Shown: positions 8,817 through 15,938 of the stretch, piece after piece | How positions within the stretch are numbered: position 1 is the stretch's first letter | How the letters are laid out: each line of letters opens with the position of its first letter | NCBI GenBank assembly: GCA_001872455.1 | Contig: MNXJ01000019.1 | Location: 1-43,345, forward strand | DNA: 43,345 bases | Source of the DNA: Anaerolineae bacterium CG2_30_57_67 | GTDB lineage: Bacteria > Chloroflexota > Anaerolineae > Anaerolineales > Villigracilaceae | Direction of reading: 5' to 3' | Translations under genes and position numbers: made by a program | The notes under the pieces: generated by a model | Told to the model about the DNA's origin: nothing | Seen by the model: only the letters and a program-made list of their open reading frames with translations | Database searches by the model: none

Positions 8817-9449
8817 TCACCGCCCAAAGCTACCAGCAATCCGCAAAATATCAAATCCTTCGGCAAAGGGGCGTTCAGCCAATGCGCCATGCCGTACCAT
8901 GATGGAACGAGTCAGGTCACGGTTGAAATAATACTTATCACTGTACGTTTCATACTGCGAAAGCGCCTGAATCTTGGCGTTCACATCCGCTTCGCTAACT
9001 TCGGCCAGAAAATGCGGAAAAAAACCATAGGATGAGCGCACAACGTCAAAGCCAAGCACAGTAATGCCGCGAAACGCGCGCAAAGACTCGTCTGTGGCAA
9101 CGTTATGGTCCTGGTGCACATCTTGTTTGCTGTGGACAAATATCAAATCCGGGTTGAAATCGCGGCGCAGATTGAGAAAGTACTCCAAAATCTCCTGGCG
9201 CGAATCAGGGAAAATGCGTGTGGTAAATGGACCCAGCACAACTTTTTCACGCGGGACGCCCAATACCGCCATGGAACGCAAATGCTCCTCCGCCACATTC
9301 TGCAAGGCCGGGTTTTTGCGATTATCCGAAAGCGTCACACACAATAAATCCGTCTGCGGCGCAATCTGATGAATCAACGCGCCACAACCCAGCTCAATAT
9401 CGTCAGGGTGCGCACCAATAAAAAGAACTCGCTCACCAAAAAATTTCAT
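8817..9449 (-). CDS. PIG-L (LmbE) family deacetylase
   Basis: 210 residues. Zinc-dependent N-deacetylase of N-acetyl sugars or related compounds. A-H-P-D-D-I-E-L-G-C-G at 13-23 supplies the first zinc ligands and catalytic Asp; H-Q-D-H near residue 125 supplies the last ligand. Start chosen at the ATG at 9449 (M-K-F-F-G-E-R-V-L-F), just before the first strand of the fold; an alternative at 9506 would overlap the upstream methyltransferase. Upstream on the same strand is a SAM methyltransferase 31 bases away, suggesting a shared sugar- or antibiotic-like modification step. The substrate cannot be read from the sequence. Confidence 0.88.
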   Translation of the reverse strand: MKFFGERVLFIGAHPDDIELGCGALIHQIAPQTDLLCVTLSDNRKNPALQNVAEEHLRSMAVLGVPREKVVLGPFTTRIFPDSRQEILEYFLNLRRDFNPDLIFVHSKQDVHQDHNVATDESLRAFRGITVLGFDVVRSSYGFFPHFLAEVSEADVNAKIQALSQYETYSDKYYFNRDLTRSIMVRHGALAERPFAEGFDILRIAGSFGR

Positions 9450-9480
9450 CCGTTTGCCATCCGTTTCAAAAACCCGCTTA

Positions 9481-10308
9481 CTATTTCGTCGCCAAAATCC
9501 CGCCAACGACTTTGGTCATCACCAATTTGCCGTCGCGTTCAAACCAGCGCGTTGCCACCTGTTCGATTTTGCCAATCAACGTCTCGTACTCATCTTTGCC
9601 GCTGAACATACTCGTCCACAATTTTCGGTCTTCGCTCAACGATGCGCGGACATAAGCCATGAACGGCGCCACTTCCGGGAACGTCAGCGGATTCTCAAAC
9701 GTGAGCAACTCCGTTTTAGCAAAAAGAGCGCTGATTGTCTGAAAAATCTCGCCCTTAAAACGGCTTGAGCCCGGCATGGGCGGAATCGCCTGCCCGCAGG
9801 CTTCGGTGATGATGTCGTAGAACATTTTTTTATTTTCGGGCAGCGGCCCGGTCACAAACAAGCGTCCGCCCGGCTTTCCAGAAACTGTATCGGGACCACG
9901 CAGCACGCGATGCGCTTCGCCAAAAGTGAATTCCAAATCTGCGGCGTAGTAAATTGCAAAAGCGCTGGAGAGAAAATCAAAACGATTGTCGGCGAAAGCG
10001 AACGGCTGATTAAAATCCAGAAACTGGAAATCAATGTTCGTCTCGCCGCGTTCAACCAGTAGCGCGCGCGCCTTCTCTAATAATTCTTCAGAGACATCCC
10101 CACCGACAATCCGCGCCTGCCCTTTGGTATAATCGCTGTACAGAAAACATTGTTTGCCCGCGCCACAGCCGACATCCAAAATATCAAAACCCGGCTGGGG
10201 ATTAAGCACTTCCAAATTCCACTGGTCAATATTGCGCAAACCATATTTTTCGTGAATATCAATCCGCACAAGCAAGTCTTTGCTGGTTTCTTGAAAGTTA
10301 ATTTTCAT
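9481..10308 (-). CDS. Class I SAM-dependent methyltransferase
   Basis: 275 residues. Motif I is I-L-D-V-G-C-G-A-G-K-Q at about 43-53; the acidic motif II (G-G-D-V-S) and the hydrophobic F-D-F-L-S-S-A-F-A-I-Y-Y motif IV region follow. The C-terminal 100 residues have no recognised motif and may bind the substrate. The ribosome binding site is GGGAG, 6 bases before the ATG. Probably in an operon with the PIG-L deacetylase downstream. Substrate unknown. Confidence 0.83.
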   Translation of the reverse strand: MKINFQETSKDLLVRIDIHEKYGLRNIDQWNLEVLNPQPGFDILDVGCGAGKQCFLYSDYTKGQARIVGGDVSEELLEKARALLVERGETNIDFQFLDFNQPFAFADNRFDFLSSAFAIYYAADLEFTFGEAHRVLRGPDTVSGKPGGRLFVTGPLPENKKMFYDIITEACGQAIPPMPGSSRFKGEIFQTISALFAKTELLTFENPLTFPEVAPFMAYVRASLSEDRKLWTSMFSGKDEYETLIGKIEQVATRWFERDGKLVMTKVVGGILATK

Positions 10309-10414: not shown

Positions 10415-11698
10415 ATGACATCCAAACCTACCATCCCCGCCGTCAAAGGCATGCGCGAGTTCTATCCAGAAGACCTGGCTGTGCGTAATTATATTTACCA
10501 AAAAGTCTGCCAGGCCGCCACACAATTCGGCTATCAGGAGTGGGAATCGCCCTACGTCGAAGCCATCGCCCTGTACGCCGCCAAATCGGGCGAAGAACTG
10601 GTCGAAAAACAATCCTTCGTCTTCAGCGACCGCGGCGGCGACAAAATCACCCTGCGGCCTGAGTTGACTCCCTCGCTAGCGCGCATGGTCGCCAAACGCC
10701 AGGGCGAGTTGGTTTTTCCACTGCGCTGGTGGCAATACGGCCCCATGTGGCGCTACGAACAGCCCCAAAAAGGCCGCACGCGCGAATTTTTTCAGTGGAA
10801 TGTAGACATGCTCGGCGTCAACTCCCCCGAAGCGGATGCAGAACTAATCAGCGTCGCGGCCACCTTCTTGAAACTGGTTGGCCTTTCGCCGCAACAAGCC
10901 ACCATTCTAGTCAATAATCGCCGCCTGATGGACGCGCAATTTGACTTTCTTGGCATCACCCCCGAAAATCGAACGTTCGTCTCCGGGCTGGTAGACCGCC
11001 GCACAAAGATGAAACCCGAAGCCTGGGACGTCTACGCCCTCGAAAACGGTCTCAATCAGCAACAGCTCGACGGTCTGGAGAAAATTCTCGGCGACCTGGA
11101 TTTGTGGCAAAAATCTGATGAATTGGTGCGGCTCTTCAAGGCGCTGGAAGCCCTCGGTGTGCGCGAGTACGTCAAATTCGACCCCAACATCATGCGCGGC
11201 CTGCTCTACTACACCGGCACCGTCTTTGAAGCCTTCGATGTCTCCGGTTCGGTGAGACGCGCCATTTTGGGCGGTGGGCGCTATGACAACCTGTTGGCCG
11301 ATGTCGGCGGCGACCCGCTCTCCGGTGTCGGATTTGCCATGGGCGATGTCGTCATCGGGATTATTTTGCAGGAAAAGGGACTCATTCCAGCCTTTACGCC
11401 TTCCCCCGCCCCGATACTGGTGACTGTTTTCGACGAGTCACTCTGGCTGGACTCTTTTGCCGTTGCCGCAGAACTGCGCGCGGCTGGTCTCAACGTAATA
11501 GTCTCACCCGAACCCGCCAAACTGCCAAAACAATTCAAATTTGCCGACCGGATGGGTATCCGCGTGGCAGTCGTCCTCGGCCCGGATGAAGCCGCCAGCG
11601 GGCAGGTGACGCTCAAAAACTTAAAAAACGGCACCCAGCAAACCGTCAGCCGTTCGCAAGCGCCAAAAGAAATCAGCGAAATTCTCGCCAGCGCGTAA
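10415..11698 (+). CDS. hisS: Histidyl-tRNA synthetase
   Basis: 427 residues, class II synthetase. Motif 2 region: R-P-E-L-T-P-S-L-A-R, then W-x-Y-G-P-M-W-R-Y-E-x-P-Q-x-G-R-x-R-E-F-x-Q. HisA box: G-L-x-Y-Y-T-G-T-V-F-E-A-F. Motif 3: G-G-G-R-Y-D-N-L. A C-terminal anticodon-binding domain covers about 330-427. No Shine-Dalgarno sequence is visible; a TATATT box ends 4 bases before the ATG and another AT-rich box (ATTATACC) lies near 10367, so the mRNA leader is short. The dlt genes start 4 bases after its stop, so hisS heads that operon. Confidence 0.95.
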   Translation: MTSKPTIPAVKGMREFYPEDLAVRNYIYQKVCQAATQFGYQEWESPYVEAIALYAAKSGEELVEKQSFVFSDRGGDKITLRPELTPSLARMVAKRQGELVFPLRWWQYGPMWRYEQPQKGRTREFFQWNVDMLGVNSPEADAELISVAATFLKLVGLSPQQATILVNNRRLMDAQFDFLGITPENRTFVSGLVDRRTKMKPEAWDVYALENGLNQQQLDGLEKILGDLDLWQKSDELVRLFKALEALGVREYVKFDPNIMRGLLYYTGTVFEAFDVSGSVRRAILGGGRYDNLLADVGGDPLSGVGFAMGDVVIGIILQEKGLIPAFTPSPAPILVTVFDESLWLDSFAVAAELRAAGLNVIVSPEPAKLPKQFKFADRMGIRVAVVLGPDEAASGQVTLKNLKNGTQQTVSRSQAPKEISEILASA

Positions 11699-11702
11699 AA
11701 GC

Positions 11703-12917
11703 ATGAAGAAAGCGCCTCACCTGCTCGCAGCGGCGATCGCGCTGTGCACAATTCTCCTGCTCGCGGTTTGGGGCAATTTTTTCGCCCGCCGCCAGGAGAA
11801 TCTTTTTGTTCACGCCCTGGCCGCCACCAAGAGCAATCAGGCCTACAACGGCTCCGCCTTCCAGCGCGCCGCCTCGCGCTACCCCGATTTGCTGCTCATT
11901 TACGGCAGTTCTGAGTTAACACAGGGCGACCCGCGCTATCAGTCGCGCGCTTTTTTTCGCAAATACCCCACCGATTTCATGGTTTTTCAGGTGGCAAAAC
12001 CCGCCGCCAACGCGCTGACCATTGCACAGTCGCTGGCCGCTCTTGGCAGTGATTTACGCGGCAAAAAAGTCGTCATTTCGTTTACGCCCTCGCTGTTTCT
12101 TCTACCCATGCTCAGCCAGGAATATTACAACGGCAATTTCTCGCGCCTGCACGCGTACGAGTTGATTTTCAGCCCCACACTCAGCCGCGCCGTGCGCCAA
12201 GCCGCCGCCCGGCGCATGTTGGATTATCCCGACTCGCTTGCCGAGGACGCCCTGCTGCATTTTGCGTTGCAACACAGCGCCGAAGATGCTCCACTTGACA
12301 ACATCCTACTGGCCTTCTCCTGGCCGCTCGGACGCCTGCAAACCACACTTATCCGCCAGCAAGACCATTTTGCCAGCCTGAACGAACTGACCGAAAAACG
12401 TCTTGACTCCAATATTTACCCCGCGCCTGCCAAAATTGACTGGCAGGGTCTGCTGCAAAAAGCGCGCGAAGAACAAGCCCCTTTTTCCAACAACAACCCC
12501 TACGGCGTGGATAATGTCTTTTGGGAGCAGGAATACAAAGCCAGCTTCGACCAGCCCATTGCGCCCGGTTCGGGCGACGCGGAATTTCTCACCAGCCTGG
12601 AAAACTCCAAGGAGTGGCAAGATTTTGACCTGCTCTTGCGCGTTCTGACTGAACTAGGCGCGCGCCCGCTGTTGATCAGCCGCCCACTTAACGCGCCCTT
12701 TCTCGAAGCCCTCGGCATTTCGCGCCGGGCGCAGTCGGTTTACTACCAAAAACTTACTGCCGCCGTCGCATCCTACCCGGTGACGCTGGTAGATTTTCAC
12801 ACGCTGGACGGCGACAAAACCTTCAGCGTTGACCGCACTTCGCACCCCAGCCTGGCCGGTTGGATTTACGTCAACCAGGCGCTGGATGCTTTCTATCACG
12901 ACCTGAGGCAGCCATGA
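11703..12917 (+). CDS. dltD: DltD, D-alanine transfer protein
   Basis: 404 residues. In the Dlt system DltD is a membrane-anchored, extracellular SGNH-like esterase that acts with DltB to move D-alanine onto the acceptor polymer. One N-terminal TM anchor (about 5-26) is followed by I-Y-G-S-S-E-L at 66-72 (catalytic Ser) and a C-terminal D-R-T-S-H-P-S block (Asp/His of the triad). The length is typical. It begins 4 bases after hisS with no ribosome binding site, so it is probably translationally coupled, and overlaps dltC by ATGA. Confidence 0.9.
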   Translation: MKKAPHLLAAAIALCTILLLAVWGNFFARRQENLFVHALAATKSNQAYNGSAFQRAASRYPDLLLIYGSSELTQGDPRYQSRAFFRKYPTDFMVFQVAKPAANALTIAQSLAALGSDLRGKKVVISFTPSLFLLPMLSQEYYNGNFSRLHAYELIFSPTLSRAVRQAAARRMLDYPDSLAEDALLHFALQHSAEDAPLDNILLAFSWPLGRLQTTLIRQQDHFASLNELTEKRLDSNIYPAPAKIDWQGLLQKAREEQAPFSNNNPYGVDNVFWEQEYKASFDQPIAPGSGDAEFLTSLENSKEWQDFDLLLRVLTELGARPLLISRPLNAPFLEALGISRRAQSVYYQKLTAAVASYPVTLVDFHTLDGDKTFSVDRTSHPSLAGWIYVNQALDAFYHDLRQP

Positions 12918-13162
12918 ATATCTCTGAAATCGTCCTGACCGAACTCGAAAAAGTGACCGAAACCGACGAAGTCCGCCGCAATCTTGACCTGATGCTGTTC
13001 GATGAGAAAATTCTCGACTCTTTCGGCTCAATGGAATTGATGGTCGCGCTTTCAGAGCAATTCGGTCTCGAAATCACACCGGGGCAGGTGGAGCGCGAAC
13101 AGTGGACCAGCCCGCGCAAAATCATCGCCTATGTGCAAGAACGGCTGAAGGAAATTCACTGA
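12914..13162 (+). CDS. dltC: DltC, D-alanyl carrier protein
   Basis: 82 residues, a small acidic four-helix carrier. The phosphopantetheine serine is S36 in I-L-D-S-F-G-S-M-E-L, the DltC version of the acyl-carrier motif. DltA loads D-alanine on this arm; DltB/DltX/DltD then pass it across the membrane. The start overlaps the dltD stop (ATGA); the longer open frame from 12860 is inside dltD. Confidence 0.93.
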   Translation: MNISEIVLTELEKVTETDEVRRNLDLMLFDEKILDSFGSMELMVALSEQFGLEITPGQVEREQWTSPRKIIAYVQERLKEIH

Positions 13163-13164
13163 TC

Positions 13165-13323
13165 ATGCGCCGTCTGAATTTGTTACGCCAATCTTTGCAT
13201 GAAAATTTTTGGGCAAAAGAAATTTTGCTGAGCCTCTACTACCTGCTGATTTTCGCAGCGCTGATTGCAATGTACGGCCAGGGAAATTTTTCGACACCCG
13301 ATTTTATTTACCAGGGATTCTGA
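13165..13323 (+). CDS. dltX: DltX, small D-alanylation membrane protein
   Basis: 52 residues. A basic N-terminus (M-R-R-L-N-L-L-R-Q), one TM helix (about 20-40) and a C-terminal F-I-Y-Q-G-F. Known DltX proteins are about 50 residues with one TM helix and end in an F-I-Y-x-x-F motif, whose tyrosine has been proposed to carry D-alanine during transfer. ATG at 13165 is 2 bases after the dltC stop, and dltA follows 3 bases after its own stop. Size, topology, tail motif and position between dltC and dltA all agree. Confidence 0.88.
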   Translation: MRRLNLLRQSLHENFWAKEILLSLYYLLIFAALIAMYGQGNFSTPDFIYQGF

Positions 13324-13326
13324 CGC

Positions 13327-14796
13327 ATGACCTTGCTCGAACAGATTGACCAGTGGCATCAGCGCGCGCCGCAACGCCTGGCGCACATCAGCGGCGCACA
13401 AACGTTGACTTACGCTGAACTCTTCCAGCGTTCCAACGCGCTGGCGCTGGCCTTGCGCCACAAGCTCACGCCCAGCGCCGAACCCGTCGCCGTGCTCGGC
13501 CACAAAGAATCAGAAATGCTGGTCGCTTTTCTGGGGTGCGTCAAGGCCGGACGCCCATACATTCCACTGGATATTTCCCTGCCCGCCGGGCGCGTTGAGA
13601 CGATTCTCACGGCCAGCGGCGCGCCGCTATTGCTCACACCCGCAACTGTCCGCGCCTGGAGTGATGAATTTCTCGACCAGACAGCAGATTTTCAACCCGC
13701 GCCGCTCACGCCAGACGCGCCCTGGTACATCATTTTCACCTCCGGCAGCACCGGCGCGCCCAAAGGCGTCGTCATCACCCGCCAGAACCTGGAAAGTTTC
13801 GTCGGCTGGAGCCAGGCAGAGCAAAATTTCCTGCCAGCAGGCGAGGTTTTTCTCAATCAGGCGCCATTTTCGTTTGATTTATCGGTAATGGATTTGTACT
13901 CCAGCCTGGCCAGCGGCGGCACGCTCTTCAGCCTGACGCGTGAGTTAATCGCTGAACCCAAAAAAATATTCGCTGCGCTGACCGAATCTCGCGTCAGCGT
14001 GTGGGTTTCCACCCCGTCATTTGCGCAACTCTGCCTGGCAGAACCAACCTTCCGCCAGGAAATGCTCCCGTCGGCGCGAAAATTCTGGTTTTGCGGCGAG
14101 ACTCTCACACCAGAAGTAGCCGCCAGCCTGCTGAAACGTTTTCCCGCCGCGGAGGTGTGGAACACTTACGGGCCGACGGAAGCCACCGTGGCGACAACTT
14201 CCCTACGGGTGGATGCGGACATTCTGGCAGCCTACGCGCCCCTGCCAGTGGGACGGCCCAAACCTAACAGCCGCATCCTGATTCTCACTAACGGCCTTCA
14301 GGCTGAGGCGGGACAGCGCGGCGAAATCGTCATTGCCGGACAAAACGTCAGCGCCGGCTATCTCCATCAGCCCGAACTCTCGGCCCGTTCCTTCTATCAA
14401 ATTGACAGCGCGCGCGCCTATCGTACCGGCGATATGGGGCATTTTCAGGATGGTTTTTTGTTTTTCGATGGGCGCATGGATTTCCAAATCAAATTGCACG
14501 GCTATCGCATTGAAATTGGCGACATCGAGGCCAACTTGCAGGCGCTGACGGGGGTACGCGATGCGGTCGTTTTGCCCATTCTCAAAAGTAACAAGGTTGA
14601 ATATCTGGCGGCATTTGTGATTTTACAGCAAGCGCAAAGCGGCTCAACCTTTGAAATCAGCCGGGCGCTGAAGCGCGAGTTGGGCGCGCGCCTGCCCGAT
14701 TACATGATTCCGCGCAAGTTTGTTTTCTTGCCCGATTTTCCGATGACGCCCAACGGCAAAGCCGACCGGCGCAAACTGGCAGAGCGCCTGGCATGA
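13327..14796 (+). CDS. dltA: DltA, D-alanine--carrier protein ligase
   Basis: 489 residues. Adenylate-forming enzyme that activates D-alanine with ATP and loads it on DltC. The P-loop F-T-S-G-S-T-G-A-P-K-G is at 137-147; N-T-Y-G-P-T-E-A-T, Y-R-T-G-D and the C-terminal N-G-K (K478) are present. Length and motifs fit DltA better than a peptide-synthetase module (no condensation or carrier domain attached). It overlaps dltB by ATGA. Confidence 0.93.
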   Translation: MTLLEQIDQWHQRAPQRLAHISGAQTLTYAELFQRSNALALALRHKLTPSAEPVAVLGHKESEMLVAFLGCVKAGRPYIPLDISLPAGRVETILTASGAPLLLTPATVRAWSDEFLDQTADFQPAPLTPDAPWYIIFTSGSTGAPKGVVITRQNLESFVGWSQAEQNFLPAGEVFLNQAPFSFDLSVMDLYSSLASGGTLFSLTRELIAEPKKIFAALTESRVSVWVSTPSFAQLCLAEPTFRQEMLPSARKFWFCGETLTPEVAASLLKRFPAAEVWNTYGPTEATVATTSLRVDADILAAYAPLPVGRPKPNSRILILTNGLQAEAGQRGEIVIAGQNVSAGYLHQPELSARSFYQIDSARAYRTGDMGHFQDGFLFFDGRMDFQIKLHGYRIEIGDIEANLQALTGVRDAVVLPILKSNKVEYLAAFVILQQAQSGSTFEISRALKRELGARLPDYMIPRKFVFLPDFPMTPNGKADRRKLAERLA

Positions 14797-15938
14797 CACC
14801 CTACGCCGATTTTCTGTACTTTGGCGTCTCGCTCTACGCGCTGTTGCCCGCTGCGCTGTTGGGCTGGCTGAAGCGCTTTACGCGCATCTGGCTGGTGTTT
14901 GCCACGCTGGGAATGCTGGCGGTGCAATACTGGCAAGGCGGCAGCGGGCTGGAAAATAAATTTTGGCTGATGTTGGGTTACGCCACCCTGCAATGGCTCA
15001 ATGCGCGCCTGTTTTTGAAATTGCGTGCGCAGAAAGTTCGCCGTCCGGCTTTTTATTTTGCTTTACTGGTGGCGCTTTTGCCCCTGCTGGCGGGAAAATT
15101 TTTTCCCGGCGATACGCTGGTGTTCGTAGGGCTGTCGTATATCACCTTCCGCAGCCTGGATGTTTTGTTTGGAATTCAGGACGGAGGCATCCAGGCGTTA
15201 CCGCTGGCGCAATACAGCCAGTTTTTACTGTTTTTCGCGACGATTTCCTCCGGCCCAATAGACCGATTTCAACGCTTTGGACAAGACTGGCGGCGGGAGC
15301 GCACCAGCGCAGAATGGCTACGCGATATAGACGGCGGAATTCAGCGTATTTTTACCGGCTTTTTGTACAAATTTATTCTCGCGGCGCTAATTAAACAATA
15401 CTGGCTTGACGCGGTTTCCGGCGCCGAACTGGGGCAAACCATCGCGTACATGTACGCCTACACGTTTTACCTATTTTTTGATTTTGCCGGATACAGCGCT
15501 TTCGCGGTTGGCTTTGCATATTTCTTCGGCATTCATCCCCCCGAAAATTTTCGACGCCCATTTGCGGCGCGCGATTTGCGCGATTTTTGGAATCGCTGGC
15601 ACATCAGCCTGTCGTTCTGGTTCCGCGATTTTGTCTACAATCGCTTTGTGTTCGCTTCGGTCAAGGGAAAATGGTTCAAAAACCGTTTCACTGCCGCCTA
15701 TTTGGGCTATTTTCTTTCAATGGGGCTGATGGGCGTCTGGCACGGGCTGGCGGCGCATTACATCGTCTACGGGTTGTACCACGGCGCGTTGTTATTTCTG
15801 ACCGACTGGCTCAACCGGCGCTACCGCAACAATCGCCTGCTCAACAGCGACAGTTTGTTCTGGCGCGGCGCGTCAATTTTTCTGACATTTCATCTGGTGA
15901 GTTTCGGCTTTCTGATTTTCTCGGGGCGCTTGTTTTAA
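14793..15938 (+). CDS. dltB: DltB, MBOAT-family D-alanyl transferase
   Basis: 381 residues, about 10-11 TM segments. Moves D-alanine from DltC across the membrane. The MBOAT signature is present: W-N-R-W-H-I-S-L-S-F-W-F-R-D (H270) and G-V-W-H-G (H317). The 47-residue spacing is the same as between the two key histidines of characterised DltB. I-S-S-G-P-I-D-R-F-x-R-F is also typical. Last gene of the hisS-dltDCXAB operon. Confidence 0.92.
   Translation: MTPYADFLYFGVSLYALLPAALLGWLKRFTRIWLVFATLGMLAVQYWQGGSGLENKFWLMLGYATLQWLNARLFLKLRAQKVRRPAFYFALLVALLPLLAGKFFPGDTLVFVGLSYITFRSLDVLFGIQDGGIQALPLAQYSQFLLFFATISSGPIDRFQRFGQDWRRERTSAEWLRDIDGGIQRIFTGFLYKFILAALIKQYWLDAVSGAELGQTIAYMYAYTFYLFFDFAGYSAFAVGFAYFFGIHPPENFRRPFAARDLRDFWNRWHISLSFWFRDFVYNRFVFASVKGKWFKNRFTAAYLGYFLSMGLMGVWHGLAAHYIVYGLYHGALLFLTDWLNRRYRNNRLLNSDSLFWRGASIFLTFHLVSFGFLIFSGRLF

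Follow-up and report, generated by a model that had tools for sequence, protein, structure and literature searches.

The window analysed here, 43,345 nucleotides of contig MNXJ01000019.1 of Anaerolineae bacterium CG2_30_57_67, carries directly behind the histidine--tRNA ligase gene hisS the five genes of a predicted Dlt (D-alanylation) system, in the order D-C-X-A-B (Table 1). All five lie on the plus strand, and each encodes a product scoring above a family cut-off, which in five neighbouring genes is not a chance pattern; by family membership the locus is classed as Dlt machinery made up of DltA, DltB, DltC, DltD and DltX. Only 4 bases separate hisS from dltD, 2 bases dltC from dltX and 3 bases dltX from dltA, and ATGA overlaps are found at the dltD/dltC and dltA/dltB junctions. 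A complete Dlt set joined to hisS, a start 4 bases after hisS, tight overlaps and a 52-residue DltX with a FIYQGF tail had been claimed earlier from the letters of the window (hereafter, the sequence-only reading), and coordinates and scores bear out each of these points exactly.

Table 1. Genes of the hisS-dlt segment in window coordinates; scores are in bits, with the model cut-off in brackets
Gene	Predicted product	Position	Strand	Evidence
hisS	histidine--tRNA ligase	10415..11698	+	TIGR00442 354 (286.75)
dltD	membrane-anchored SGNH D-alanyl transferase (Ser70, His381, Asp377)	11703..12917	+	TIGR04092 189.7 (150), PF04914 190.6 (22.7); structural model; match to solved DltD
dltC	D-alanyl carrier protein (phosphopantetheine Ser36 in DSFG)	12914..13162	+	PRK05087 72.1 (68), TIGR01688 61.1 (52.35); aligned to 1dv5
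dltX	52-aa membrane microprotein, acyl-shuttle tail FIYQGF (Tyr49)	13165..13323	+	PF12459 28.4 (25)
dltA	D-alanine--carrier protein ligase (Cys256 in FCGE)	13327..14796	+	PRK04813 570 (476); phmmer match to 3fcc
dltB	MBOAT D-alanyl transferase (His317 in WHG, His270 in NRWH)	14793..15938	+	TIGR04091 412.7 (375); aligned to 8jem

Residues of the known systems were monitored in the window proteins and in relatives, the loci of the latter coming from a DltB scan of a contig collection, in which 528 stretches were confirmed and the best 80 retained. The best solved match of DltA is the D-alanine ligase 3fcc (phmmer 2.4e-147); the FCGE cysteine, which we take to be linked to D-alanine selectivity, is kept in the alignment, and is found in 45 of the 48 sequences of the non-Firmicute set. 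The phosphopantetheine serine of DltC (DS motif) aligns with the solved D-alanyl carrier protein 1dv5, and both the WHG and the NRWH histidine of DltB are kept in the alignment to solved DltB 8jem, WHG being present in all pieces of the non-Firmicute (54/54) and Firmicute (34/34) sets. His317 and His270 were equated by motif with His336 and His289 of solved DltB, the motifs being those in the part of PMC11035591 consulted. The host genome encodes two further MBOAT proteins, 36-38% identical to part of DltB (G000:C70:2347-3162 and G000:C47:41954-42670; L002, L003). The C-terminal part of DltX is conserved in relatives, no solved chain was matched by the protein in sequence searches, and its tail conforms to the shuttle motif FXYXXF given in the sections available of PMC12148441.

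DltD is only 16-22% identical to solved DltD. The AlphaFold2 model of the protein (alignment of 50 sequences; pLDDT 96.2, pTM 0.93) matches four solved DltD entries with Z scores of 34.1-36.4, at 2.9-3.4 Å over 342-353 residues; beyond DltD entries Z is at most 10.8 among the 50 matches listed by VIA-align, a result that does not show other folds to be different. Ser70 and His381 are present in every one of the 50 aligned sequences, and Asp377 in 34 of them. The putative DltA-DltC-DltB-DltX-DltD relay has the best support that sequence and predicted fold can give.

The spacing is too tight for dltD to have its own promoter in the gap behind hisS. A terminator scan of the region stayed at about chance level, no tRNA genes were found in the window, and no Rfam match at gathering scores. 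The hisS gene is the sole match in the host genome at E <= 1e-60, and in 22 of the 23 other genomes of the family searched it has a counterpart of 67-75% identity. None of dltD, dltC, dltA or dltB lies beside hisS in the 25 other hisS loci (1.5-kb flanks; the downstream side of L105 ends at the contig end), the window alone featuring the linkage. Genes for a PIG-L deacetylase and a methyltransferase (8817-10308, minus strand) are divergent from hisS, and the methyltransferase adjoins hisS in 17 of the 25 other loci. Contamination as the source of dlt was rejected on these grounds, the divergent genes matching the hisS neighbours of relatives and sharing the 43-kb contig with dlt. In some relatives, dlt genes are found behind other housekeeping genes, namely an Obg GTPase gene (L018:2470-3732) and genes for acyl-CoA synthetase-like proteins (L015:2667-4790, L031:2795-4906); dlt may be a cassette using the promoters of other genes.

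The host genome (G000) measures 2.99 Mb in 87 contigs, and is 98.37% complete and 2.24% contaminated. Two genomes (G028 and G248) are members of its own family, and the DltB rows nearest to the window come from Chloroflexota, for the most part with Anaerolineae or Anaerolineales in the title. The sequence-only reading had left the phylogeny of the host to be checked, with a Firmicute making ordinary lipoteichoic acid (LTA) as the alternative; family members and nearest rows place the host in Chloroflexota and not among the Firmicutes, and the searches for LtaS, TagF-type and LicD proteins described below were empty. TIGR04091 matches at E <= 1e-80 were found in 11 of 400 genomes of the phylum, nine of them above the cut-off. 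In the family of the host, dlt is present in 4 and absent from at least 20 among the genomes listed, and at least 5 changes are needed to fit its presence on a tree of hisS from 26 genomes (seven with dlt, three of these included for having it). This patchy pattern could stem either from ancient possession followed by losses or from transfer among members of the group. Only one genome of 288 in a Verrucomicrobiota sample, Chthoniobacter itself, was positive for TIGR04091, and Dlt is therefore rare in that phylum too.

In a DltB tree of 82 rows one clade of 50 rows (support 100/99) is made up mostly of Chloroflexota and Verrucomicrobiota, with single Planctomycetota, Gemmatimonadota and Eiseniibacteriota records and three metagenome-assembled genomes (MAGs) titled Bacillota; Desulfosporosinus and kin are its sister (99/93). 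The DltD tree, from which 13 loci had been excluded beforehand in thinning near-duplicates, is concordant, 45 rows of the non-Firmicute set being set apart from 23 Firmicute rows (100/100). The split is mirrored in the DltX tail. A glutamine follows the shuttle tyrosine (xxYQxx) in all 46 sequences of the non-Firmicute set and in none of 28 from Firmicutes; FXYXXF as such is shared, being present in 43 of 46 and 27 of 28, respectively. A further Firmicute tail, FLYFGF, quoted in the consulted part of PMC11035591, likewise lacks the glutamine. The DltX profile was grown from the window protein at E <= 0.01, and strongly divergent tails could escape it; seven loci with dltA gave no DltX, the three non-Firmicute ones (L022, L057, L101) ending at a contig edge beside dltA. 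According to the accessible text of PMC5541007, a BLAST survey of 2017 found dltX in 809 species, 805 of them Firmicutes; the 46 DltX of the lineage found here all belong to dlt clusters, 44 being from loci with titles other than Bacillota. Judged from trees and tails, the window system is placed in a Dlt lineage apart from that of typical Firmicutes, and common to other Chloroflexota and to LpxC-bearing Verrucomicrobiota.

The order of the genes varies within this lineage. D-C-X-A-B is found in 17 uncut clusters of the non-Firmicute set (16 Verrucomicrobiota and the window) and is the usual order in Verrucomicrobiota; C-D-X-A-B is found in seven (six Chloroflexota and one MAG titled Bacillota). 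Uncut Firmicutes clusters are ordered X-A-B-C-D 12 times and C-D-X-A-B five times. In the non-Firmicute set, X lies directly ahead of A in 42 of the 46 clusters with a DltX. In 14 of 18 Chloroflexota loci C and D both precede X, with C first in 11 and D first in three, these being L017, the window and L102, a D-C-X-A-B cluster at a contig edge. The order had been described as rearranged in the sequence-only reading. This holds against the dltXABCD of Firmicutes, but not as a peculiarity, D-C-X-A-B being common in the lineage; as to the same order in relatives, the 16 Verrucomicrobiota loci have the gene order of the window, while most Chloroflexota clusters with both genes ahead of dltX put C before D. 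Distinctive in the window is the location beside hisS, rather than the gene order. Acquisition of the window genes from Verrucomicrobiota, considered in view of the shared order, is not supported, the window grouping with Anaerolineae in the DltB (99/94, 100/100) and DltD (99/95) trees. Two adjacent dltD genes accompany one X-A-B set in five loci from Anaerolineae and Verrucomicrobiota (L017, L018, L032, L038, L040), perhaps serving two acceptors from one relay.

Genes for an acceptor polymer were monitored in the host and in other genomes. In the host genome no match was found to TagF/TarL-type polymerases (PF04464), to LicD (PF04991), to LpxC (PF03331) or, at E <= 0.001, to an LtaS profile whose five seed proteins, all of LtaS type, came from a Lactobacillus and a Desulfosporosinus; the check for teichoic and lipoteichoic genes proposed along with the sequence-only reading thus came out empty. 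Two LCP ligases are present. The lone PF00884 sulfatase-family match of the host is partial (profile positions 209-296), and falls in an open reading frame (ORF) of 337 residues with a lipoprotein-like start and, by eye, no string of membrane helices. Control searches in Firmicutes gave 492 bits (G423) and 286 bits (G425) with the LtaS profile, and 165 bits with PF04464 in Lactobacillus (G424). LicD was found in none of 42 genomes, two Firmicutes among them, and LpxC in none of the 18 dlt-bearing Chloroflexota tested. LtaS-profile scores do not exceed 32 bits in 17 of these 18. Weak PF04464 matches, below 32 bits, are found in nine of the 18, and in 18 of 20 members of the family lacking dlt. 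Verrucomicrobiota with dlt carry LpxC in nine of ten genomes and PF04464 in none of ten, and lack LCP in the four tested; with the LtaS profile they reach no more than 61.5 bits, a level to be expected of other sulfatases. The same Dlt lineage is therefore found in two kinds of envelope without any tested acceptor gene in common.

The explanation preferred, to which we assign a probability of roughly 0.6, is that the window encodes a complete Dlt machine whose target is a surface glycan distinct from the known teichoic acids and from lipopolysaccharide (LPS), likeliest a wall polymer attached by LCP ligases. Transcription of dlt would probably occur by read-through from hisS. If the steps follow the conserved parts of the Firmicutes pathway, DltA would activate D-alanine and load it onto DltC in the cytoplasm, DltB would move it across the membrane onto Tyr49 in the DltX tail, and DltX would pass it to Ser70 of membrane-anchored DltD, by which it would be esterified to a polymer outside the membrane. 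The D-alanyl ester would lower the negative charge of the surface, and probably raise resistance to cationic peptides. The acceptor is reached by exclusion: it is presumably neither a polyglycerol- or polyribitol-phosphate teichoic acid nor LPS, because genes for these were not found, and the system is not classed as teichoic acid D-alanylation because LtaS, TagF/TarL-type and LicD proteins were looked for in the host and none was found. A surface glycan, in the host probably fixed by the LCP ligases, is favoured over a hidden teichoic acid.

Various results weigh against this explanation. DltA falls about 9 bits short of the TIGR01734 equivalog model (550.7, cut-off 559.85). Promoter-like matches in the region number 4 against 2.5 expected, close to chance, one weak match (12984-13011) lying within the operon. 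PF04464 was empty in three of four dlt-bearing Firmicutes searched (G422, G423, G425), and is therefore a weak test alone. LCP proteins are found also in relatives lacking dlt, and so do not single out the acceptor. A dlt-bearing Chloroflexota (G097) encodes an LtaS-like protein (G097:C10:11224-12936, 213 bits). No polymer gene lies beside dlt in the window. The absence of acceptor genes was judged by family models, which a diverged polymerase could escape, and in a genome still in draft (87 contigs).

It is on some of these points that ordinary teichoic-acid D-alanylation would draw, an LTA- or wall-teichoic-acid-like polymer being made by enzymes too diverged to detect and decorated as in Firmicutes. 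We regard this as rather unlikely. The host has LCP ligases, the LtaS-like protein of G097 is from the same phylum, 21 of the 23 other family genomes searched have weak PF04464 matches, and teichoic and lipoteichoic acid genes are claimed from annotation for the Chloroflexota Litorilinea aerophila, described as without lpxC in the part consulted of PMC8793728. The same claim and the G097 protein bear on the sequence-only reading, which held the acceptor to be unclear and LTA not to be established in Chloroflexota: the empty host searches agree with it, these two records qualify it. Set against a diverged teichoic acid, the host searches were empty with profiles detecting LtaS and PF04464 proteins in the Firmicutes controls, and the PF04464 matches of relatives are weak and not confined to genomes with dlt.

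The loading of a different amino acid (e.g. glycine or L-alanine), or the decoration of a lipid rather than a polymer, is improbable. AlmEFG, which adds glycine, offers a parallel. The TIGR01734 shortfall of DltA would fit another substrate, as would the lack of the FCGE cysteine in two ligases of relatives: a second DltA-like ligase lying directly after dltB in G269, a member of the family (L096:13786-15231; FWLAGE), and the sole DltA of a Chloroflexota locus (L025:6496-7989; VLAGE), both of which may act on an amino acid other than D-alanine. Among the lipids bound to purified DltB, phosphatidylglycerol was the main one, according to the portion consulted of PMC11035591. Yet the window DltA keeps FCGE, scores well above the PRK04813 cut-off and has a D-alanine ligase as best solved match.

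That the genes are a transferred, non-working relic, as their patchy distribution over the phylum and the changes on the hisS tree might suggest, is very improbable, since reading frames are all intact, catalytic residues are kept, translational coupling is tight, and G+C content and GC3 of dltD, dltA and dltB fall inside the spread of values seen in the genes around them (dltX and dltC, both short, have a lower G+C content).

More tentative than the LCP-linked glycan proposed for the host is a reading of the lineage as a whole, to which we give somewhat less than even odds: Dlt systems with a YQ tail and X-A-B order would D-alanylate an undescribed envelope polymer, neither teichoic acid nor LPS, in LpxC-less Chloroflexota as in LpxC-bearing Verrucomicrobiota, the latter showing no TagF, no full-strength LtaS and no LCP (four tested). 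With the DltXABCD of Firmicutes (e.g. Lactobacillus, Bacillus) the window system shares the five proteins, catalytic residues, the shuttle tail of DltX and the DltD fold; it differs by the order D-C-X-A-B instead of X-A-B-C-D, by a FIYQGF instead of a FIYN-type tail, by a separate DltB clade, and by a host in which LtaS, TagF and LicD were not found. Desulfosporosinus, sister in the DltB tree, has C-D-X-A-B like most Chloroflexota relatives, with X right before A-B, but is a Firmicute, with LtaS-like proteins in both genomes tested (G422, G423) and FIYNNF or FIYNGF tails. Systems of Chthoniobacterales-type Verrucomicrobiota belong to the same lineage and have the same D-C-X-A-B order, with mostly FVYQ[GE]F tails; their hosts differ from that of the window in having LpxC and in lacking LCP where tested, which suggests an LPS outer membrane.

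Dlt homologues outside Firmicutes are also described for Dickeya and relatives (Gammaproteobacteria), likened here by description and not by sequence. The text consulted of PMC3544676 has dltBAC and a separately listed dltD, gives dltB a role in polymyxin resistance, states that Gram-negatives are without teichoic acids and does not mention dltX; in the accessible part of PMC5541007 dlt genes are given for Dickeya and Pectobacterium, and modification of LPS is suggested for the Dickeya system, whereas LpxC was not found in the window host. PatA/PatB and other MBOAT-SGNH acyltransferases use the same relay from acyl-Tyr to Ser, but PatA takes acetyl-CoA as donor and carries the tail itself, with no carrier protein and no DltX-like microprotein in the account available (PMC12148441). 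Searches of one open-access library, outside which most subscription papers lie, turned up no description of Dlt for Chloroflexota or Verrucomicrobiota, and nothing on dltABCD in Planctomycetes; on LTA in Chloroflexota envelopes they gave only PMC8793728.

Teichoic acid modification is the textbook role of Dlt, which in Firmicutes is a drug target. With all five parts present, DltX included, in a bacterium for which no known acceptor genes were found, two options are left: Chloroflexota produce a charged polymer that has gone unrecognised, or glycans of other kinds are served by Dlt. Should the YQ lineage act on an undescribed polymer, the acceptor chemistry of Dlt would be much wider than teichoic acids. 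Such systems are easy to find by the YQ tail, and the acceptor might be tested in Chthoniobacter flavus Ellin428 (L044), whose record is not labelled as a MAG and which bears LpxC.

Genes near dlt in relatives were also surveyed. The 460 neighbour ORFs of non-Firmicute loci gave 26 clusters present in at least three loci (representatives of 14 were scanned, the other 12 judged by eye); no teichoic acid polymerase was found among the 26, and no cluster spans the whole lineage. A polysaccharide deacetylase gene (PF01522) lies downstream of dltB in five Anaerolineae loci (L015, L016, L027, L031, L096), and FemAB and sugar-nucleotide epimerase genes lie near dlt in four each (L015, L016, L027, L031); these surface-glycan genes occupy L015:9687-13151, with matching stretches in L016, L027 and L031, and L096:16246-17064. 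They recur in these four to five loci only and are missing near the window genes; they mildly indicate surface glycans, and the neighbour scans leave the odds of the readings unchanged. ORFs for sigma-54 response regulators and histidine-kinase-like proteins also lie near dlt (L055:742-2133, L030:2061-3023 and similar), each homology cluster counting 12 loci, ten from Verrucomicrobiota and two from Chloroflexota (L026, L100), a pattern that may reflect the general homology of such regulators.

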